A stretch of DNA of 64,000 nt, taken from Janthinobacterium sp. PC23-8 (lineage in GTDB: Bacteria; Pseudomonadota; Gammaproteobacteria; Burkholderiales; Burkholderiaceae_D). A program made the position numbers and the translations under genes. The DNA lies in contig NZ_NJGY01000001.1 in the NCBI RefSeq assembly GCF_002250505.1, positions 541,923 through 605,922 of the forward strand, given 5' to 3'. Positions 4,552 to 57,682 of this stretch are shown here, in pieces (the first letter of the stretch is position 1; the number at the start of each line of letters is the position of its first letter). Under the pieces are notes generated by a model. That model was given only the letters and a program-made list of their open reading frames with translations, did not search any database and was not told where the DNA came from.

Positions 4552-4627
4552 TGGCTCCCCGACCTGGACTCGAACCAGGGACCTGCGGATTAACAGTCCG
4601 TCGCTCTACCAACTGAGCTATCAGGGA
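4552..4627 (-). tRNA. tRNA-Asn (anticodon GTT), copy 1
   Basis: The 76-base sequence on the minus strand folds as a full cloverleaf. It has a 5' TCCCTGA acceptor strand, a D-loop with AGTTGGTAGA, an anticodon loop CTGTTAA with GTT, a T-loop GGTTCGAGTCC, and an encoded CCA at 4552-4554. It is identical in sequence to the copies at 11634-11709 and 12263-12338. It has its own promoter and terminator. Confidence 0.97.
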
Positions 4628-11633: not shown

Positions 11634-11709
11634 TGGCTCCCCGACCTGGACTCGAACCAGGGACCTGCGGATTAACAGTCCGTCGCTCTACCAACTGAGC
11701 TATCAGGGA
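11634..11709 (-). tRNA. tRNA-Asn (anticodon GTT), copy 2
   Basis: A 76-base cloverleaf with anticodon GTT and encoded CCA, identical to copies 1 and 3. It is flanked by its own promoter and terminator and so is transcribed alone. Confidence 0.97.
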
Positions 11710-12262: not shown

Positions 12263-12338
12263 TGGCTCCCCGACCTGGACTCGAACCAGGGACCTGCGGA
12301 TTAACAGTCCGTCGCTCTACCAACTGAGCTATCAGGGA
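12263..12338 (-). tRNA. tRNA-Asn (anticodon GTT), copy 3
   Basis: A 76-base cloverleaf with anticodon GTT and encoded CCA, identical to copies 1 and 2, transcribed from its own promoter. Confidence 0.97.
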
Positions 12339-21357: not shown

Positions 21358-21984
21358 TCAAGGCCAGGCCGGCCTGCGCATCTTGAACAGGCCGTCGGCC
21401 CTGATTTCAAAATAATCGGCCGGGCCGCCGCCGCGCAGGATCGGCGCGGCGGCGGCCGTGTCGTACACGCCATCTTTCAGCAGATGGCGCGCGATATGCA
21501 CGCCCACCACCTCCCCCAGCACCAGCCAGCTGCCGACACCGCTGCCATTGACACCTTGCAGTTCGATGATCTGCGTGCGCCGGCATTCGAACGACACCGG
21601 GCTTTCGGCCACGCGCGGCACCTGCACCACGCGTGAAGCGAGCGGGCTCAGGCCTGCCAGCGCGAATTCATCGACTTCGGGCGGCGCCGGCGCGCAACTG
21701 GTGTTCATGGCGTCGGCCAATGGCCGCGTGGCCAGGTTCCACACGAATTCACCATTCTCTTCGATATTGCGCAAGGTATCCTTGCGGCCGATGCTGGAAA
21801 AACCGATCAGCGGCGGCGTGTAATTGAAGGCATTGAAAAAACTGTAGGGCGCCAGGTTGAGCACGCCCGCATTGCTGCGCGTGGCGATCCAGCCGATCGG
21901 GCGCGGCCCGACGATGGCGTTGAAGGGATCGTGCGGCAGGCCATGGCCCCGCGCGGGTTCATAAAAATGGCTATCGTCGCTCAT
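21358..21984 (-). CDS. flavin reductase family protein
   Basis: The 208-residue protein has the flavin reductase/DIM6-NTAB split-barrel fold that binds FMN. Marks are Pro-Arg-Pro-Ile-Gly-Trp-Ile-Ala-Thr-Arg at residues 27-36, Asn-Leu-Ala-Pro-Tyr-Ser-Phe-Phe-Asn-Ala, and a later Lys-Asp-Thr-Leu-Arg-Asn. Such proteins reduce flavin for monooxygenases or act as stand-alone oxidoreductases; no partner monooxygenase lies nearby. The ATG at 21984 (Met-Ser-Asp-Asp-Ser-His) is where family similarity starts; a longer frame to 22266 is rejected. Its 5' end overlaps the plausible start of the divergent hypothetical gene. Confidence 0.88.
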   Translation of the reverse strand: MSDDSHFYEPARGHGLPHDPFNAIVGPRPIGWIATRSNAGVLNLAPYSFFNAFNYTPPLIGFSSIGRKDTLRNIEENGEFVWNLATRPLADAMNTSCAPAPPEVDEFALAGLSPLASRVVQVPRVAESPVSFECRRTQIIELQGVNGSGVGSWLVLGEVVGVHIARHLLKDGVYDTAAAAPILRGGGPADYFEIRADGLFKMRRPAWP

Positions 21985-22479
21985 GCAATTGCTTTCGTTG
22001 CGGCCGCAAGCCGGGAGTGCCAGCTTAACAAAATCGTCGGCCGGGCGCGTTTTCCGGCACCTTGGGATGCGCCATCCGCCCAGACAGAGCGCGGCTCGGA
22101 CCCGCCGACAAGCCCCGCCGACGACACCGTGCCCGCCGAAGCGCCGCCTGCCGCGCCCAGGCCCGACGCCATCGACCGCCAGCTGCGCGCCGAACATCCG
22201 CAACAGTTCGTGGCGCCGCCCGATACGCCGCAAACGCGCCTGGCAAAAGGCTTTGCCGAAGCGCATGCGGCAGCCAGGCCAAAATGGTTCGAGGCGGCCC
22301 GCATCGAACTGTGGAGCGCCCCGAATGACCCGAAACGCATCTGCCGCATCATCACGGCCACCGGCGAATACTGCATCGACATGCCCGACAAGGGCAACCT
22401 GACGCTCAATCTCGACACCAGATCCGGTTATGCCGGCTTCGGCGGCGGTACGGCCGCGCCTTGTCCAATCAGGTTTTAA
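21967..22479 (+). CDS. hypothetical protein with proline-rich linker
   Basis: The C-terminal 75 residues look like a real folded domain. They run from Leu-Ala-Lys-Gly-Phe-Ala-Glu through Trp-Phe-Glu-Ala-Ala-Arg-Ile-Glu, a cysteine pair around Arg-Ile-Cys-Arg and Glu-Tyr-Cys-Ile-Asp, to Cys-Pro-Ile-Arg-Phe. Before it lies a Pro/Ala-rich linker. The N-terminus is uncertain: from the ATG at 21967 a short hydrophobic segment could anchor or export the protein, but this start overlaps the divergent flavin reductase gene by 18 bases. A later GTG near 22130 is possible. The stop overlaps the end of the convergent helicase gene by 4 bases. I do not recognise the family. Confidence 0.6.
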   Translation: MAIVAHAIAFVAAASRECQLNKIVGRARFPAPWDAPSAQTERGSDPPTSPADDTVPAEAPPAAPRPDAIDRQLRAEHPQQFVAPPDTPQTRLAKGFAEAHAAARPKWFEAARIELWSAPNDPKRICRIITATGEYCIDMPDKGNLTLNLDTRSGYAGFGGGTAAPCPIRF

Positions 22480-24698
22480 TCGTCATGCGCCTGCGGCGCA
22501 GCCGCATATTGCTGCGTCCAGGCATGCGCTCCGGCCACATCCATCTGCAAGCTGGCATAGGATTTTTTCAGCAAGTGCTCGGGCAGCGCCCAATCCCATT
22601 TTTCCCTGCGCAGATTGAATGCACCCGCCAACAGTTGCTGCGCGTCAGGCGGCGGCTGGCGGGCAAACGCCTGCAGATATTGCGCGATCCTCTGCTCGTC
22701 AGTTTCCTTGGCGAAAATCTCGATCGCAGGACCGGATACCGAGACGCTCACGCCCGCCTTGCGCAGCACTGCGGCCAGGGCTTCGTTCTGCTTGTCGCCC
22801 AGCCAGGTCAGCAGATAGATATTGCTTCCCATGCTCAGCATCACGCGCTGATCGAGACGATAGCGCACATAGCTGTCTCGCCCTTCCTGCAACAAAAGGA
22901 CGGAGGCGGCATCGAGAAAATGCGGCACCTCGCTGCCACGGTACAGTTCGCGCATGCGCTGCCTGATCCTGGCATGCAAATGCCCTTTTCCGCCGGCAAA
23001 CACCGGCGCCTTGCCGATCGATGTCTTGCTGACCAAAATGGTTTTGCCTTCTTCTTCTATCGTCTCGACACACCAGGTTTTTCCTGCAAACACGATGTAG
23101 TCGCCGATGGACACGCTACTCGACACAGGCAGGGAGCCCAGCACGCGGCTATCGCAGACGACGCGATATTCTTCTTCCGCCGCAAACGCGGCATAAAAAG
23201 AGTAGTGATTGACCATGCGCTCACCTTTTGCCCCATGCAGCAGTACACCTGATGCGTCCTGCTGTATCAGTTCGAGCTTGCCCAGATGGCGCAACATATC
23301 GAGAAAATCAGCTTTGCCCAAGGCCGGAAAGGGGCCTTGCACACACAGCGCGCGATAGGCGTCACCTGCCTGCACGCCGCCACGCTGGGCAATCAGGGAT
23401 AGCAATTGCTGGATCAGTGTTGAAAAGTGCAAGCCATCCGTTTGCGGTGGTTCGACCCACTTCTCTTCCAGCAGGCTGACCATCGCAGCGAACGTGAACA
23501 ACCCTGTGCGCAACTGCACATCCAGGGTGGAATCCTTCATCAATGCCTGTTCCGTGACATAGCCGCGCAAGATGGCCGGCTCGCCGGGGCGCCGCCCGGA
23601 ACGCCCCAGGCGCTGGCGCATGCTGGCCACCGATGGCGGAGAGCCGATCTGGGCAATGCTTTTGACGGCGCCGATATCGATCCCCAATTCCAGCGTATTG
23701 GTACAAATGGCGGTGGCATGCAAAGCCTTGTTCTTCAGCGCCGCTTCGGTTTCTTCCCGGATGTCACGCGACAGGTTGCCGTGATGCGGCCAGAATTCGT
23801 TGGTGATATGCTGCTGCTCGCACAGCCAGCCCAGGGCATGGGCGTATTCCTCGACCAGCCCGCGGGTATTCGGAAAGACCAGGTTGTTCGAACCGCGCAA
23901 GGTGTCGAACAGATGCCGGACGATGGAACTGGTCGTGATGGCGGGGGCATCCTGCTGCTCTGCCGGCAAATGTGCCGGCTCCACATACGCCTTGATTTCA
24001 AGCTGCAGACGTACCGGATCGGCATTCGAATTGATGATCTCGACGCCATCGCCACCACGCAAGCGCAAGAATTCCGCCGCCATGCCAAGATCACCGAGGG
24101 TCGCGGACAGCCCGACCCGCACCACCTTGTGCCCCACCGCCAATTCCATCCGCTGCATCAGCGACTGCAGTTGCTTGCCGCGCTCGCTACCGATAAAAGC
24201 ATGCAGCTCGTCAACCACGATATAGCGCAGCCTGGCAAACAACTGCGGCACCTGGAAGCCGCGATTGCACAGCATCGCTTCGAGCGATTCCGGTGTAATC
24301 AACACCACGCCCGATGGTTGCTTGAAAAAACGGTTTTTAGAAGACGAAGAAATATCGCCATGCCAGGGCCAGACGGGAATTTCCAGCTGTTCGCACAACC
24401 GTTCGAGGCGCATGAACTGATCATTGATCAGGGCCTTGATCGGACTGATATAGATACACAGGCCGGTGTCCTGGATATTGGCCAGCAAATGCGTCAGGAT
24501 GGGGAAGAAAGCGGCCTCGGTCTTGCCTGCGGCAGTAGCAGCGGCAATCAGCACATCGCGGTCGCAGCCGACCAGCGCCGGAATCGCCCGCTCCTGCGCG
24601 TCGCGCAAGACGCTCCATTTCTCTGTCCATATCCAGCGCTGGATGCGGACGTCCAGCAAGCTGAATGCGGCCGATGAACGCGGTTCGCCGGCGGACAT
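22476..24698 (-). CDS. Lhr-like superfamily 2 helicase (BrxHI-type)
   Basis: This is a 740-residue DEAD/DEAH-type helicase. Visible motifs are the Q-motif region near 34-37, Walker A Ala-Thr-Ala-Ala-Gly-Lys-Thr (54-60), motif Ia around Tyr-Ile-Ser-Pro-Ile-Lys-Ala-Leu, motif II Asp-Glu-Leu-His (163-166), motif III Ser-Ala-Thr (198-200), and motif VI Arg-Gln-Arg-Leu-Gly-Arg-Ser-Gly-Arg-Arg (361-370). A further C-terminal region of about 350 residues recalls Lhr and the BREX-associated helicase BrxHI. It is the last gene of the operon, 2 bases after the BrxD-like gene. It probably translocates on or unwinds nucleic acid for the complex; substrate and polarity cannot be read. Confidence 0.88.
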   Translation of the reverse strand: MSAGEPRSSAAFSLLDVRIQRWIWTEKWSVLRDAQERAIPALVGCDRDVLIAAATAAGKTEAAFFPILTHLLANIQDTGLCIYISPIKALINDQFMRLERLCEQLEIPVWPWHGDISSSSKNRFFKQPSGVVLITPESLEAMLCNRGFQVPQLFARLRYIVVDELHAFIGSERGKQLQSLMQRMELAVGHKVVRVGLSATLGDLGMAAEFLRLRGGDGVEIINSNADPVRLQLEIKAYVEPAHLPAEQQDAPAITTSSIVRHLFDTLRGSNNLVFPNTRGLVEEYAHALGWLCEQQHITNEFWPHHGNLSRDIREETEAALKNKALHATAICTNTLELGIDIGAVKSIAQIGSPPSVASMRQRLGRSGRRPGEPAILRGYVTEQALMKDSTLDVQLRTGLFTFAAMVSLLEEKWVEPPQTDGLHFSTLIQQLLSLIAQRGGVQAGDAYRALCVQGPFPALGKADFLDMLRHLGKLELIQQDASGVLLHGAKGERMVNHYSFYAAFAAEEEYRVVCDSRVLGSLPVSSSVSIGDYIVFAGKTWCVETIEEEGKTILVSKTSIGKAPVFAGGKGHLHARIRQRMRELYRGSEVPHFLDAASVLLLQEGRDSYVRYRLDQRVMLSMGSNIYLLTWLGDKQNEALAAVLRKAGVSVSVSGPAIEIFAKETDEQRIAQYLQAFARQPPPDAQQLLAGAFNLRREKWDWALPEHLLKKSYASLQMDVAGAHAWTQQYAAAPQAHDD

Positions 24699-24700
24699 GG

Positions 24701-26002
24701 TCAGATCCGGAAGCCGGCGAAATCTTCGTCCGGTTCCAGCTGGGCATCGGCAGCGCCGCCGGTATCGGCAAACACGTCGACCTGCTCCAGCAATGCCTGC
24801 CAGCGTGACGACGGATTTTGCTCAAGTACCGCCAGCAAGCCGACAAAGGACGTGATAGTAGTACGCGGCGTCCTGAAATAGAATTCGCCAACGCGCCTTG
24901 CGCAATGCTCCATGAAGGCGTGAATCGCTTCGTCAGGCAGGGCGAATTTCTCAGCCACGCCATACGCATGGACGTTGCGCACTTTTTGCAGCAAGACATA
25001 AAAGTCTTCGGGAGTCAGGCTGGCAAGGCGCAGCACCGGACCACTGTAATCGACCAGCCTCGCCGTGGCGAAGGTATTTTCCGCCAGGCGGCTTTGCAAT
25101 GCGGGATAGCTGAACAGACCACGGCGCGCATCCTGCAAAAATTCAGGCGTGCCGCCCAGGATAAAACCCAGCCCTTCGGTATTGCCCTGCAAGGTGTCAT
25201 TCAGAATGCGCAGAATTTGCTCGTAGTTGGCATTGCGCGCGGCCGTATTGGCCAACTTGTACAAGTTGACCAGCTCATCAAGACAGACGACAAAGCCCGT
25301 AAAGCCCGCCAGGCGCACGAAGCGTGCAAACAGCTTGAGCTGGTCGTAGAACGAGGCGTCGTCGACGATGGCCCGCACGCCCAGGGCCTGGCGCGCTTCA
25401 GTCTTGGTATTGAACTCACCGCGCAGCCAGCGGATGGCATCGGCCTTCAATTGCTCGTTGCCCGTCTCAAAACCTTTGTAATACGCGGCAATCACATCGG
25501 CAAAATCAAAGCCATTGACCATCTCCGTCAGGTGTTCAAGCTTCTGGCGGATAACCGTTTCGGTCGCAACGCCCTGCGCCGCCGCTTCGGTTTTCGCCGT
25601 CGAAACAAATTTCTCGACGATGCCCGTCATCGCGCCACCGTCCGGCTTGGAGCGTGTGGACAGGTTGCGCATCAACTCGGCATACAGCGAGCGTGCCTGG
25701 CCGCCGGTGGCGTGCAGGCGCCGGTCGGGATTCAGGTCGGCATTGGCGGTGACCAGTTTCTTTTCCATCGCCACGGCGCGTATCAGGTTCAGGAAAAACG
25801 TCTTGCCGGAACCATATTCACCGATCACAAAGCGGATCGCCGAGCCGCCGTCGGCAAGCCTGTCCAGATCGGATACCAGTGTTTCTATCTCATGCTTGCG
25901 GCCTACCTGTATCAGATGCTGCCCGACGCGCGGCACCACGCCGGCACGCAAGGACTGGAGGACGGCATCGCGGTCCCTGGGGCGGATAGGTGGCAAACTC
26001 AT
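24701..26002 (-). CDS. BrxD-like ATP-binding protein (DUF2791 family)
   Basis: The 433-residue P-loop ATPase has Walker A Gly-Glu-Tyr-Gly-Ser-Gly-Lys-Thr (61-68) and Walker B with Leu-Asp-Glu (241-243). A sensor-like stretch follows, Phe-Ile-Leu-Gly-Gly-Thr-Pro-Glu-Phe, then Leu-Ala-Glu-Asn-Thr-Phe. The layout matches the DUF2791 group, which includes BrxD of type 2 BREX phage-defence systems, where it is paired with the helicase BrxHI. The start overlaps the TerB gene stop by 4 bases (ATGA), implying translational coupling. None of the BREX core genes (pglX methylase, pglZ, brxC/pglY) is present. The AAA-like protein may load or power the helicase; that is inference. Confidence 0.85.
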   Translation of the reverse strand: MSLPPIRPRDRDAVLQSLRAGVVPRVGQHLIQVGRKHEIETLVSDLDRLADGGSAIRFVIGEYGSGKTFFLNLIRAVAMEKKLVTANADLNPDRRLHATGGQARSLYAELMRNLSTRSKPDGGAMTGIVEKFVSTAKTEAAAQGVATETVIRQKLEHLTEMVNGFDFADVIAAYYKGFETGNEQLKADAIRWLRGEFNTKTEARQALGVRAIVDDASFYDQLKLFARFVRLAGFTGFVVCLDELVNLYKLANTAARNANYEQILRILNDTLQGNTEGLGFILGGTPEFLQDARRGLFSYPALQSRLAENTFATARLVDYSGPVLRLASLTPEDFYVLLQKVRNVHAYGVAEKFALPDEAIHAFMEHCARRVGEFYFRTPRTTITSFVGLLAVLEQNPSSRWQALLEQVDVFADTGGAADAQLEPDEDFAGFRI

Positions 26003-27768
26003 GGTGCGATTCTTTCGTGGATGTCGGGATTGATGTCAATCGGATCATCGCCTTCGGAGCACAGGCAGTCATAGGCGTCGAGGCAGGCTTCATTGACATG
26101 TTCCAGCGCGCCATCGAGCATCATGTCCAGACTGCGGGCGAGCACTTCCAATTCGCTGCGTGACCACGATGAACGGGCAAGCAGTTGGCGCATGAATACC
26201 GTGTGCGCAGAATCGAGTCCGGTCAGGCGGTCCAGCGAAGACGAGATTGGAGACGCCGTTGCCACAGGAACGGGCACGGGCACGGTATCGTCGACGAATA
26301 TATTACCAAGTAATACTGCCAGTTTTTCACTATCGCTCTGCAATTGTGCAATGCGCGCGAGGTCAAGCATGACCACGCCGGAAGGGAGGGCGTCTGACAC
26401 CGTGGCGTGCTTGGTTGCCGGCGCCATCTCCACCCCATGCAGGGCGAGGTACAGCTTCTTGCGCTCGACATCAAGAAAATCATACAGCCGCTCCAGCACC
26501 GCTACCGCGCCACGCGGCAGATGCGCGTCGGAGTTGGCAATGCCCACGATAAATTCGGCGCACGCTTCGCGCACCGCCTGTCCCGCGTCTTGCACCTTGC
26601 GTCGCATGGTGGAAGACAGCATCGGTTCTTGCTGCAGCAATCGAGCGTGCATCATCAGCTTGCGCTGTTGTTGCGTGCCCAGGTGACTCCAGGAAGCGAT
26701 CTGTTCATCGAGTACCACCATTTTTTCGTCGCTCAATACCTGGTTGATCTGCGCCTGCATGATCAGCAGTTCCAGTGCCAAGGTGGCGGTGGCGTTCTGC
26801 ATCTCGAGCACGGCGGTACATTCGTCCACCACTCTTTGCAGGAAATTGACGGGTCCGTCGATGGCGTTGATATCTGGAATATCGCCCAGTTCGACATCGA
26901 TGCCTTGCGTGTCCCGGAGGAAGCCGGACGCCGGTGCATACACACATTTCAGTCTGGCCGCCGTCGGCCGGATCCTGATCCGGTCACCATGCATGTTCCC
27001 ATATTTTGCCAGGAAGAGCGCATGGAATTGCTCATCGCAATACGCGGTCGCCGGGCTCAGTACGATCGCCGGATCGTGCAGTACCCAGGCCAAGGCCAGC
27101 TGCACCGGAATAGGATGCCGGTCAGCCACAGCCTGGCCGATGGCGAGGCGCAGCTGCATGGGCATCACGGTGCCAACGGCTAACTCTGGAACGGCTTGCA
27201 AATACAGTTGAGGCGGCGCCTGCAACAAATTGACGACATCCAGAAGCTCACCGCACTTCCGCTGAAACAACGATGATGTCTTGCCGTAATGCTTCAAGAG
27301 CCGCAGCAATTCTTTGGCAATTATTGGCAACTCTGCAAGCAGTGTCTTGTCAGCTTGGAAGTCCAGTAAAACCCGGCGTTCCAGGCCAAAGAAAAATAGC
27401 CAGATATTGCTGATATCGGCGTCAGGACCACTGCGGCCATCAGCAAGCCATTTCAAATAGGCGCCGCGTGCGCTCGGAGACATATCGGCATAACTGGGCC
27501 GATCTTCATGGGCATGCGCCTGGTTGTAATCGGCCCGCAAGTCGACCGCTTTCAGGGGATCGATCAGGCAGGGATCGGGTGGGCCATCTCTTCCTGGAAA
27601 ATTCTCCCCGACATACACCATGCCTGATGGAATCGATAGACCAGCGACCGTCACAGCTTGATTGCGGCCATGCCACTGCGCCATTAATGGCTGAGCGGGC
27701 GGCCCGGGGATACGAAACCCACTATCCTCAAAGGAAAAATGCGCATCATCTGAACTGTATCGCGTCAT
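25999..27768 (-). CDS. TerB_N / TerB_C domain protein
   Basis: The product has 589 residues from the ATG at 27768. The TerB_N domain (about 30-220) shows Gly-Met-Val-Tyr-Val-Gly (49-54), Arg-Gly-Ala-Tyr-Leu-Lys-Trp-Leu-Ala-Asp-Gly-Arg (101-112) and Phe-Gly-Leu-Glu-Arg-Arg (127-132). A middle helical part may contain a TerB-like domain, and the last 70 residues match TerB_C with Glu-His-Val-Asn-Glu-Ala. TerB-type proteins belong to the tellurite-resistance/stress network. Comparative genomics has linked TerB_N/TerB_C proteins to ATPases and helicases, as here. An in-frame GTG at 27810 lacks a ribosome binding site. It is the first gene of the three-gene operon and may act as its sensor or scaffold. 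Confidence 0.85.
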   Translation of the reverse strand: MTRYSSDDAHFSFEDSGFRIPGPPAQPLMAQWHGRNQAVTVAGLSIPSGMVYVGENFPGRDGPPDPCLIDPLKAVDLRADYNQAHAHEDRPSYADMSPSARGAYLKWLADGRSGPDADISNIWLFFFGLERRVLLDFQADKTLLAELPIIAKELLRLLKHYGKTSSLFQRKCGELLDVVNLLQAPPQLYLQAVPELAVGTVMPMQLRLAIGQAVADRHPIPVQLALAWVLHDPAIVLSPATAYCDEQFHALFLAKYGNMHGDRIRIRPTAARLKCVYAPASGFLRDTQGIDVELGDIPDINAIDGPVNFLQRVVDECTAVLEMQNATATLALELLIMQAQINQVLSDEKMVVLDEQIASWSHLGTQQQRKLMMHARLLQQEPMLSSTMRRKVQDAGQAVREACAEFIVGIANSDAHLPRGAVAVLERLYDFLDVERKKLYLALHGVEMAPATKHATVSDALPSGVVMLDLARIAQLQSDSEKLAVLLGNIFVDDTVPVPVPVATASPISSSLDRLTGLDSAHTVFMRQLLARSSWSRSELEVLARSLDMMLDGALEHVNEACLDAYDCLCSEGDDPIDINPDIHERIAP

Positions 27769-27906: not shown

Positions 27907-28212
27907 TCAGCCAAACACAGGCCGGAAAAAACTGCGTTCATAGCTGACGATGCAGCGCGTTTCCTCGGCATGGCGAAACGCCGCCTGGCAGTCGGGGTCC
28001 TGCAGCGAGTCGATGCGGTATTGTTCATACAGCGCCAGGCTGGGGAACGAGAACATGGCCAGCGCCACGTTGCTGGCGCCTTCGGATGGCAAAAAGTAGC
28101 CGTGATGCTGGCCGCCGAAGCGCTCGACCAGCGGTATCCACAGCTTGCCGTAGGCTTCGAATTGCTGCAGTTTGTACGGGTCGATGATATAGCGTAAATA
28201 GCAGGTGATCAT
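27907..28212 (-). CDS. NIPSNAP family protein
   Basis: The 101-residue product is a single ferredoxin-like NIPSNAP domain. It starts Met-Ile-Thr-Cys-Tyr-Leu-Arg-Tyr-Ile-Ile-Asp and has the conserved Gly-Tyr-Phe-Leu-Pro-Ser-Glu-Gly segment. Family members are small dimeric proteins without an agreed bacterial function. The gene precedes nothing else on its transcript and lies 13 bases after the acetyltransferase gene, so the two are probably co-transcribed. Confidence 0.9.
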   Translation of the reverse strand: MITCYLRYIIDPYKLQQFEAYGKLWIPLVERFGGQHHGYFLPSEGASNVALAMFSFPSLALYEQYRIDSLQDPDCQAAFRHAEETRCIVSYERSFFRPVFG

Positions 28213-54743: not shown

Positions 54744-57065
54744 TCAACGTTGTTCGATGCCCGCTTCCGACAGCGCCCCTTCCAACGCCTGCACCTCATC
54801 TTCCTGCAGCGCGAACAGCGCCTCGAGGTCGCCCTGCAGCTTGTACAGGAGCTTGAGCTGAACCATGCCGCGCTTGCGCAGCTTGCCCGGCACGCCGGGG
54901 CGCAACAGGCTGGACTTCAGGTGTCCGGCCAGCTCGCCGGCCTGGCGGTATTGCTCGCGCTCGATCATGGCCTGCAACATGGCGATCATGCTGGTCAGGG
55001 TCTCCGGCTCCTGCGTATAGGCCGCGTCATGCTCGGCCAGGATGGCTTGCTGCTGCACGGTACCGGCCAGTTGCCTCCGGCTGTGCAGGGTATCGAGATG
55101 GTCCTCGCCCAGCACGCGCGCATGCACTTCAAGCACCTGCTCCTGCACGCTGCGGGCGGCTTCGAACTCACCGCGCCGCAGCAGCGCTTCGGCCAGCTTG
55201 CGCTGGCTCATCAGCGTTTCAGGATGGTCGAGTCCGCGCGTGCGCTCGCGCGCCGCCACCTGGTTTTCATGCAACTGGCGCGCGCCAGCCCAGTCGCCGA
55301 GCCCGGCCATGATATCGGCCAGGCGGTCGCGCGTGGCCAGGGTAGCTGGATGGTCGAGGCCCAGCGTGCGCTCCTGCGCCTGCAGGATGGCGTCGAGCAG
55401 CAGGCGTGCGCCGTCCAGCTCGCCCTGCCGCCCCAGCACCTGGGCCAATACCAGTTTGCTGTGCAGGGTGTCGCCATGCTCGGCGCCAAACAGCCGCGTG
55501 CGCGCGGCGACCACGGTGACCAGCAATTGCCGCGCCTCGTCGAGCTTGCCCATGTGCAGCAAGGTGGCGGCGCGACACTCCATCGCGCCGAGGGTGCGCG
55601 GATGCTCGGCGCCCAGCTGGCGCAACTGGCTGGCCAGCACCGCATCCTGCAAGGCCAGCGCGGCCGCATAATCGCCCTGGCGTACCATGGTCTGCGCCAG
55701 GCAGGCCTTGGCGGCCAGGGTGTCGGCATGTTCGGCGCCCTGCAGCCGTGCGCGCGCTCCAGCCACGTCTTCTTCCAGCCGGCGCGCTTCGTCCAGGCTG
55801 CCCAGCTGGCGCAGCAGGCGCGCCATGCCGCTCTTGCCGGCCAGGGTATCGATATGCTCGCCACCGAGGACGCGGGTGCGGATCTCCACGCTTTGCCGGA
55901 AAGCGTCCAATGCCGGTTCCGGCCGGCCGTCTTTGCGGTACAGCTCGCCCAACCGGGCCAGATCGCGCGCCAGCGGCAAAGCCACGGCGCGGCCCGGCTC
56001 CAGCTGCAGCGCCCTGCGGGCTTCCTCGATGGCGGCCAAGAGGCCGATCTCGCGGCTCGATTGCCATGGAAAATAGCCGCCTGTCAGCCACTGCAAAAAC
56101 GCTTCGAAGGTGCGCGTGAGCGAAAAGCGGTCGCCGCCCTGGTCGATGCGCACGGCCAACTGCTCGCCATAGGCGAAGGTCTTGGTCTGCTGCAACTGCA
56201 CTTCATCGAAATAACTGTCGAGCGCGATCTGCGGCAAGCCGTAGGAGTTGCGCAGCAGGCGCTCGAACATCGGCTGGTAGCCGGCGATGCCCTTGTAGCT
56301 GTCGCCACGCCGCCATTCGGCGCGTTGCGCACCGTCGCCCATTTCTATGCGCGACGGCAATGGGTACACCAGCAAGGGGCGCTGTTCGTCTTCATGGCTG
56401 CGCCGGTACTCGATGGCGCGCGTCACCAGCGCATCGACGCCTTCCAGGCTTTGCCGGTTCGGCGTGAACACCACCACCAGTTTCTTTGGAAGCAAGGTGG
56501 TGCAGATGCCGGCGCTGTCGGTGCGCCCCGTGCGCGAGTCGACCAGCACGTAGCGGAAATGCCGCGCCAGCGTATCGGCAAAGCAGCGAAACAGCGCCGG
56601 GCAGGCGTCGAACAATTGATCCCAGCGCATTTGCGCCAGCCGCTCGCTGTAGCTGGCGTCGAAGCGCCCGGCGCGCATCAGGTACAGCGGACTGCCCTGG
56701 TCGACCCGCACCACGTATTGCTGCCAGTCGATGGCGTCGAGCACGCGCTCGGCCAGCGCCGCGTCGTCCTGCGCGCCGCCCTCGCCGTGCGTCGCGCCCA
56801 GTTGTTCCAGCTGTTCGCGGCAAGCCTCGAAAAACTCCAGCACGCCAGGGCATTCCTCGTGCTGATCAAAATAGTGGTGCAGCCCGGGCGCTTCCATGTC
56901 CCAGTCCAGCATCAGCACCGGCACGCTGGCGTTGTCGCGGCGCGCCAGCAGCACGGCGATATTCGACAGGGCCATGGTGCGGCCGGTACCGCCCTTGTAG
57001 GAATAAAAGGTGACGACTTCACCAGGGGCGCTCAAAGGCGGCAGGGACAGGCGTGGGCATTCCAT
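54744..57065 (-). CDS. ParA-like ATPase with seven kinesin-light-chain-type TPRs
   Basis: The product has 773 residues from the ATG at 57065. A MinD/ParA-like domain has the modified P-loop Lys-Gly-Gly-Thr-Gly-Arg-Thr (24-30), switch Asp-Trp-Asp-Met-Glu-Ala-Pro-Gly-Leu (54-62) and Walker B Val-Leu-Val-Asp-Ser-Arg-Thr-Gly. The arginine stands where ParA proteins have the second, catalytic lysine. After about residue 390 come seven 42-residue TPR units, each with a Gly-x2-His-x2-Thr-Leu signature. The TIR gene ends 11 bases before it, so the two are co-transcribed. The architecture, small effector plus switch NTPase plus TPR sensor, recalls STAND-type immune proteins; the function is not established. 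Confidence 0.85.
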   Translation of the reverse strand: MECPRLSLPPLSAPGEVVTFYSYKGGTGRTMALSNIAVLLARRDNASVPVLMLDWDMEAPGLHHYFDQHEECPGVLEFFEACREQLEQLGATHGEGGAQDDAALAERVLDAIDWQQYVVRVDQGSPLYLMRAGRFDASYSERLAQMRWDQLFDACPALFRCFADTLARHFRYVLVDSRTGRTDSAGICTTLLPKKLVVVFTPNRQSLEGVDALVTRAIEYRRSHEDEQRPLLVYPLPSRIEMGDGAQRAEWRRGDSYKGIAGYQPMFERLLRNSYGLPQIALDSYFDEVQLQQTKTFAYGEQLAVRIDQGGDRFSLTRTFEAFLQWLTGGYFPWQSSREIGLLAAIEEARRALQLEPGRAVALPLARDLARLGELYRKDGRPEPALDAFRQSVEIRTRVLGGEHIDTLAGKSGMARLLRQLGSLDEARRLEEDVAGARARLQGAEHADTLAAKACLAQTMVRQGDYAAALALQDAVLASQLRQLGAEHPRTLGAMECRAATLLHMGKLDEARQLLVTVVAARTRLFGAEHGDTLHSKLVLAQVLGRQGELDGARLLLDAILQAQERTLGLDHPATLATRDRLADIMAGLGDWAGARQLHENQVAARERTRGLDHPETLMSQRKLAEALLRRGEFEAARSVQEQVLEVHARVLGEDHLDTLHSRRQLAGTVQQQAILAEHDAAYTQEPETLTSMIAMLQAMIEREQYRQAGELAGHLKSSLLRPGVPGKLRKRGMVQLKLLYKLQGDLEALFALQEDEVQALEGALSEAGIEQR

Positions 57066-57076
57066 GGCGGGGACCT

Positions 57077-57682
57077 TTAACGTGGGAAGTGAGGGGGCGG
57101 CACGGCCCGCCACTGCGGCGGGATCTCCGGCAGGACGAAGCGGCTGCAATCATGGCCAGGCGGTGTCGAGCGCTTAAGCATTTGATAATGCCTGGCGATA
57201 CGCTGCACGATTTTCTTGATATCGGGCAAAAACTGCGGATTCGACTTCAGCTCGCCGCTGGCCAGCGTGTAGGCGGAAAAATCGACGTAGAAGCCGGGGC
57301 CGGCGATTTGCGCCGGCAAGCCCTCGGTATGCTGCGTCATGATGATGGGGATGATCAGGTGGCTGGGCAGCTCGTACCAGTTGCGGCGCTCCTGTTCGAT
57401 CAGTTGCATGGCGGCGAACTCGCGCCGCGTATAGCCATGCGCTTCGTATTTCGGCGTGTACAGCACGATCATGCACACGCTTTCGCACATGGCGCGCGCC
57501 ACGCGCAGATCGAGGTCGTCGCCGCCGCCAAGTTGTTCGCTGTCGATGAACAGGGCGTCTTCGCGGTCGAGGTGGGGTTCCAGATAGCACGACAGGGCTT
57601 CCACCAGATCATTCTTGAACTTGTTCATGAAAGCGAAGTTTCCGTGTGCATAGCTCAAGAAACAGCCGTAGCGGATCTCCAT
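57077..57682 (-). CDS. TIR-domain protein
   Basis: The 201-residue product starts directly with the TIR box 1-like Cys-Phe-Leu-Ser-Tyr-Ala-His (7-13). The BB-loop region is around Ile-Asp-Ser-Glu-Gln-Leu (46-51), and box-3-type Val-Leu-Tyr-Thr-Pro-Lys-Tyr-Glu (73-80) follows. Glu88 in Thr-Arg-Arg-Glu-Phe sits where NADase-type TIR domains carry their catalytic glutamate. The last 40 residues are a Pro/Arg-rich tail. Bacterial TIR proteins often destroy NAD+ or make cyclic ADP-ribose signals in phage defence. It is the first gene of a two-gene operon with the ATPase/TPR gene. Confidence 0.8.
   Translation of the reverse strand: MEIRYGCFLSYAHGNFAFMNKFKNDLVEALSCYLEPHLDREDALFIDSEQLGGGDDLDLRVARAMCESVCMIVLYTPKYEAHGYTRREFAAMQLIEQERRNWYELPSHLIIPIIMTQHTEGLPAQIAGPGFYVDFSAYTLASGELKSNPQFLPDIKKIVQRIARHYQMLKRSTPPGHDCSRFVLPEIPPQWRAVPPPHFPR

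Follow-up and report, generated by a model that had tools for sequence, protein, structure and literature searches.

A very probable Shango anti-phage operon with a shortened SngA allele in Janthinobacterium sp. PC23-8

The earlier account of the Shango anti-phage system in E. coli is reportedly that of Millman et al. 2022. In P. aeruginosa PA14, Shango comprises three genes, which encode a TerB-like protein, an ATPase and a DEAD/DEAH helicase, and in strain PAO1 this operon reduces plating 10-100-fold for many phages, though not for all; the accessible part of the same work cites a prior report of the system in E. coli (PMC10250203). The mechanism of Shango is listed as unknown in the accessible part of a review (PMC12926258), and none was found in open-licence PMC papers, a scope that leaves preprints outside. 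A related ATPase-helicase pair, BrxD and BrxHI, is linked in type 2 BREX: according to the available text of PMC12839542, BrxD is an ORC-Cdc6 AAA+ ATPase and a possible loader of BrxHI, and BrxHI is described with DNA-binding domains; its main text mentions neither Shango nor TerB. In Ter systems, TerB has been proposed to sense a nucleotide signal (PMC7824862, as far as its accessible text goes).

Here we describe a three-gene operon in a 64,000-nucleotide stretch of Janthinobacterium sp. PC23-8 DNA, referred to below as the window. Three intact, co-directional open reading frames occupy the minus strand from 27768 to 22476 in the order sngA-sngB-sngC, with a 4-bp overlap between sngA and sngB and a 2-bp gap between sngB and sngC. 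An earlier note on this DNA had read a TerB-ATPase-helicase trio as one operon with spacings of -4 and +2 bases; Pfam domains and reading frames agree with this description, and the interval 22476-27768 fits an ATG start of sngA at 27768, which yields a protein of 589 aa (603 aa if GTG 27810 is the start). The features of the locus are as follows.

21931..22479, plus strand: left boundary gene, here called "SML", without a Pfam family; it converges on sngC and overlaps its stop by 4 bp
22476..24698, minus strand: sngC, Lhr/BrxHI-like SF2 helicase, 740 aa (PADLOC SngC; motif columns)
24701..26002, minus strand: sngB, BrxD-like (DUF2791, ORC/Cdc6-type) AAA+ ATPase, 433 aa (PADLOC SngB; motif columns)
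25999..27768, minus strand: sngA, TerB_N/TerB_C protein, shortened allele (Pfam; PADLOC SngA; alignment)
26008..26379, minus strand: TerB_C, residues 478-601 of the 603-aa reading (PF15615, 8.1e-26)
26428..26799, minus strand: region aligned to TerB-core-like helical domains, acidic motif degenerate (limits approximate, transferred from the L016 model)
26802..26803, minus strand: point of the missing 342 bp (114 codons), approximate to a few bases (DNA and protein alignment; tblastn break at residues 322/323)
27061..27660, minus strand: TerB_N, residues 51-250 of the 603-aa reading (PF13208, 2.3e-47)
27907..28212, minus strand: right boundary gene, NIPSNAP family (PF07978, 5e-16)

Base composition sets the operon apart from its immediate surroundings, as had been remarked earlier, with a GC content of 0.57-0.61 vs 0.62-0.64 just outside (2-kb windows) and a GC3 of 0.65-0.72 vs mostly 0.75-0.88 in the other likely genes of the window. 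However, GC falls to 0.56 at 10-13 kb and again at 46-49 kb of the window; the operon is no more AT-rich than these stretches, so composition alone is no proof of foreign origin.

Pfam identified TerB_N and TerB_C in the sngA product, BrxC_BrxD (2.6e-157) in that of sngB, and DEAD (3.5e-30) together with Helicase_C (1.4e-13) in that of sngC; it returned no nuclease domain for any of the three. Examination of motif columns shows that the motifs of both enzymes are intact: SngB (19 sequences compared) carries the Walker A stretch GEYGSGKT at residues 61-68 and the LDE of Walker B at 241-243, and SngC (21 compared) carries AATAAGKT at 53-60, DELH at 163-166, SAT at 198-200, TNTLELGIDIG at 333-343 and QRLGRSGR at 362-369, which we take to be helicase motifs I, II, III, V and VI. 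In PADLOC, whose model scores are given here without cut-offs, the best match of the first gene is SngA (8.8e-64, 215 bits, two stretches aligned only), that of the second SngB (7.5e-183, 607 bits; BrxD comes second with 2.2e-47 and 160 bits), and that of the third SngC (4e-263, 873 bits; BrxHI comes second with 1.2e-116 and 389 bits). The trio thus has the composition by which Shango is defined, a TerB-like protein, an ATPase and a DEAD/DEAH helicase in one operon. Because the SngA, SngB and SngC models outscore those for BrxD and BrxHI, and because the window SngB falls below the cut-off of the NCBIfam BrxD equivalog (NF033438; 155.7 bits, cut-off 350), the operon is, with high confidence, a Shango anti-phage system. 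The earlier note had regarded the trio as unassigned, a view superseded by the named PADLOC models and by the anti-phage activity reported in the accessible text of PMC10250203; its suggestion of a stand-alone accessory module of anti-phage kind, BREX-related yet separate, is borne out by the Shango identity and by the patchy occurrence described below. The lack of pglZ and brxC/pglY noted at the time extends to the whole genome, in which PglZ (PF08665) has 0 matches and sngB is the sole BrxC/BrxD relative (PF10923), with no additional BrxC/PglY ATPase. The window copy therefore belongs to a known system, and its unusual part is the SngA allele.

Alignment to SngA of two congeneric genomes, G010 and G023, reveals an in-frame gap of 342 bp (114 codons) in the window sngA, located between TerB_N and the TerB-like core; the SngA of a third congener (G011, locus L018) has lost ~80 residues at the same place. 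A further ~213 bp of 5' coding sequence, which in G010 encode a membrane-like N-terminus, are gone from the window, the 32-bp leader motif just upstream is retained, and no good ribosome site was seen by eye before the ATG at 27768. The membrane segment is also absent from G023 SngA. Across 31 SngA proteins (those of 30 intact loci and the window), a simple, crude hydropathy scan in which the TerB_N start was guessed for several found a membrane-like segment (a hydrophobic 19-mer) ahead of TerB_N in 18 and none in 13, the window included. One alphaproteobacterial SngA of 1,064 aa (L034:6795-9989) begins with a PG_binding_1 domain and also has a hydrophobic segment ahead of TerB_N, an arrangement that hints at the cell envelope.

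The central domain may also have diverged. PF05099 (TerB), tabulated for Shango in the accessible part of PMC10952713, finds no match in SngA of the window or of L016, and does match in L011 (E. coli), L014 (Roseobacter), L034 and L036. Predicted SngA structures are of fair quality (pLDDT 80.0 and 79.6), and comparison of the predicted core revealed weak resemblance to the TerB-type folds 2h5n and 2ou3. The window SngA is a derived form without membrane and central segments. Two readings follow: a soluble protein that still works, or a copy that has been weakened. Because SngA is the weakest-scoring of the three proteins and lacks the 114 codons, the membrane segment and a PF05099 match, the window copy may not work.

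How sngA evolves bears on this choice. In seven pairs of loci, dN/dS is 0.18-0.30 for SngA, 0.03-0.10 for SngB and 0.06-0.20 for SngC, SngA ranking highest in 7/7. SngA likewise has the lowest identity of the three proteins in 15/17 pairs, which are not independent and combine the seven dN/dS pairs (SngA lowest in 6) with ten more (lowest in 9), enterobacterial and cyanobacterial ones included. The two exceptions are G002/G024 (SngC 74.8 vs SngA 79.4) and L083/L015 (SngC 95.9 vs SngA 96.1). In the first of these (L044 vs L045), SngB is 97% identical and SngC 75%, the picture of a mosaic operon, which indicates that the operon also recombines. For sngA, dN/dS is 0.21 between the window and G010, 0.23 between the window and G023, and 0.18 between G010 and G023; by arithmetic, the window branch has a value of ~0.26 and the G010 and G023 branches 0.16-0.20. 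Judged by these ratios, selection on the shortened sngA is still purifying.

Decay of the window Shango is nevertheless possible: an sngA stripped of its membrane and central segments would have lost protection, and sngB and sngC would persist for now. The missing 5' coding part downstream of a surviving leader motif, the internal 342-bp loss, the want of a good ribosome site by eye and the ~80-aa loss at the same place in G011/L018 would speak for such a course, and broken Shango loci are known (L012, L030, L033, L038, L040 and L041). Against this, all three reading frames are open and the internal loss is in frame; the window values of 0.21 and 0.23 lie near the 0.18 that separates G010 from G023, and G023 likewise does without the membrane segment. 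Taken together, we regard decay as unlikely, if still the strongest of the competing readings.

The distribution of the operon is patchy. SngB occurs in 7/39 other genomes of the genus, 1/20 of the same family and 0/40 of the same order, and, at E <= 1e-60, in 9/397 genomes of a phylum sample that counts the PC23-8 genome itself. A relative of SngB is present in 694/72,556 plasmid records and in 0/50,697 phage records. DNA matches to sngB-sngC were obtained in 469/5,426 E. coli genomes, none spanning 80% of the query; the four of these 469 that were inspected (L011, L012, L082, L083) all contain the TerB, ATPase and helicase genes, and one is broken. That locus, from E. coli RM14723 (L012:7718-14966), has IS1397 inside sngA and a frameshift in sngB. 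Gene order is conserved: among 42 non-duplicate loci, fetched through SngB or taken from annotated records (L012 not counted), sngA, sngB and sngC are intact and co-directional in 30, six run off the end of their contig, and six are incomplete or broken. The three genes, whose co-occurrence the earlier note had proposed to check, thus stand together in most of these loci, and by its patchy distribution the operon is accessory.

The chromosomal site supports the same view. SML and NIPSNAP lie ~20-40 bp apart in five congeners that have no operon (G012, G005, G014, G017 and G019), and therefore mark an empty site. In all seven Shango-positive congeners the operon sits in the same neighbourhood with differing junctions: it abuts SML in the window and likewise in G010, G023 and G002; in G024 and G035 it sits between SML and a flavin reductase gene; and in G031 and G011 it is found on the other side, near a gene that we take, by eye, to be uvrB. 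G023 additionally has a 3' NIPSNAP fragment directly upstream of sngA (L043:8118-8260) besides an intact NIPSNAP gene, a trace of rearrangement at the site. We considered a housekeeping role within the genus, in DNA repair or stress; the shared neighbourhood of the seven positive congeners and the ordinary neighbouring genes would speak for it. The counts of 7/39, 1/20 and 0/40, which rule out a universally conserved housekeeping operon in the family, the empty site in five congeners and the plasmid-borne relatives make this very improbable.

Whether Shango lies in defence islands has a divided answer. For the window copy an island is rejected: in 32/39 congeners, what lies between the genes for flavin reductase and phosphoribosyltransferase looked ordinary (by eye, permease-like, peroxidase-like, GST-like and WD40-like genes); the survey of this site left out G001, G013, G021, G022, G026, G027 and G034, whose flanks lie apart or matched poorly. 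In records from E. coli, Klebsiella and Roseobacter, by contrast, Shango neighbours include AbiE-type genes and integrases (L011, L012, L082), integrase remnants (L083), a Lit-family gene (L015), and SAVED, ThiF and Mov34-type genes (L014). Islands of E. coli also place Shango beside other defence systems, according to the accessible part of PMC11096173. The link to defence islands, which the earlier note had proposed to check, therefore applies to these records and not to the window or the congeners surveyed.

Elsewhere in the window, ~27 kb from Shango, a possible second conflict module spans 54744-57682 on the minus strand, where a TIR_2-domain protein (57077-57682, minus strand; 2.5e-08) overlaps the gene for a KGGTGR P-loop NTPase with TPR repeats (54744-57149, minus strand; PADLOC candidate PDC-M28B, 3.7e-14). 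Three tRNA-Asn(gtt) genes lie on the minus strand at 4552-4627, 11634-11709 and 12263-12338, and a small ORF occupies part of the 550 bp that separate two of them.

Sensing, loading, target and mode of phage arrest, as we infer them, would run as follows. SngA, with its TerB_N, TerB-like core and TerB_C, would in most other copies be anchored to the inner membrane through an N-terminal segment, and may sense or bind phage DNA as it enters or replicates, or else a signal of infection; by analogy with Ter systems, a nucleotide signal would be an alternative input. SngB, an ORC/Cdc6-type AAA+ protein like BrxD, would assemble in an ATP-dependent manner and load or activate SngC. SngC, an SF2 helicase resembling Lhr and BrxHI, would then unwind or remodel phage DNA and so block its replication. 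A SngB loader acting on the SngC helicase is the likeliest mechanism on the BrxD-BrxHI analogy, one that we hold tentatively and at slightly less than even confidence, and the broader scheme of TerB sensor, ATPase loader and helicase effector may be called a reasonable conjecture. That SngA evolves fast is in keeping with a sensor, and from the rate order SngA > SngC > SngB it would be SngA on which phages exert pressure. A bolder and rather doubtful proposal is that Shango is a membrane-tethered helicase loader, in which a fast-evolving SngA scaffold would recognise phage where its DNA enters, leaving the work to a conserved engine like BrxD-BrxHI, and that one Janthinobacterium-like lineage has reduced its SngA to a soluble TerB_N-TerB-TerB_C core that lacks the usual metal-binding motif. 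If this is true, the stripped SngA shows the minimal recognition part. Rate order, a membrane-like N-terminus in many SngA proteins, and a natural allele lacking both it and the central segment offer handles on the mechanism of Shango.

Several known systems share single elements with the window operon. Bunzi and Dionysus are defence systems with a TerB-type domain, by description only, in the accessible parts of PMC10952713 and PMC12926258. Hachiman (HamAB) similarly employs a Ski2-like SF2 helicase in defence (PMC12278908 and PMC12839542, accessible text), and SngC matches HamB weakly in PADLOC (4.3e-15); HamA, however, is a nuclease, a domain that Pfam did not report in the window trio. Closer is the pair of type 2 BREX, where an ORC-type AAA+ ATPase likewise adjoins an Lhr-like SF2 helicase; the window operon has a TerB protein instead of the BREX core and no PglZ, and its SngB and SngC score much lower against BrxD and BrxHI than against the Shango models. 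That the operon is what remains of a type 2 BREX system, or a sub-module of one, with BrxD-BrxHI but no core, is scarcely credible, since the matches to BrxD (160 bits) and BrxHI (389 bits), and the linkage of that pair in BREX (PMC12839542), are set against Shango scores of 607 and 873 bits, an NF033438 score of 155.7 bits where 350 is needed, a genome without PglZ, and a TerB partner conserved across intact loci. The comparison does tie the Shango engine to the BrxD-BrxHI pair. Relative to Shango itself, the window SngA is short (589 aa vs 700-850 in most relatives), has neither the N-terminal membrane segment nor the 114 central codons, and carries a degenerate TerB-core motif, whereas the operon shares with Shango its gene order, its domain content, the best PADLOC match of each of its three proteins, and the composition of the PA14 system.
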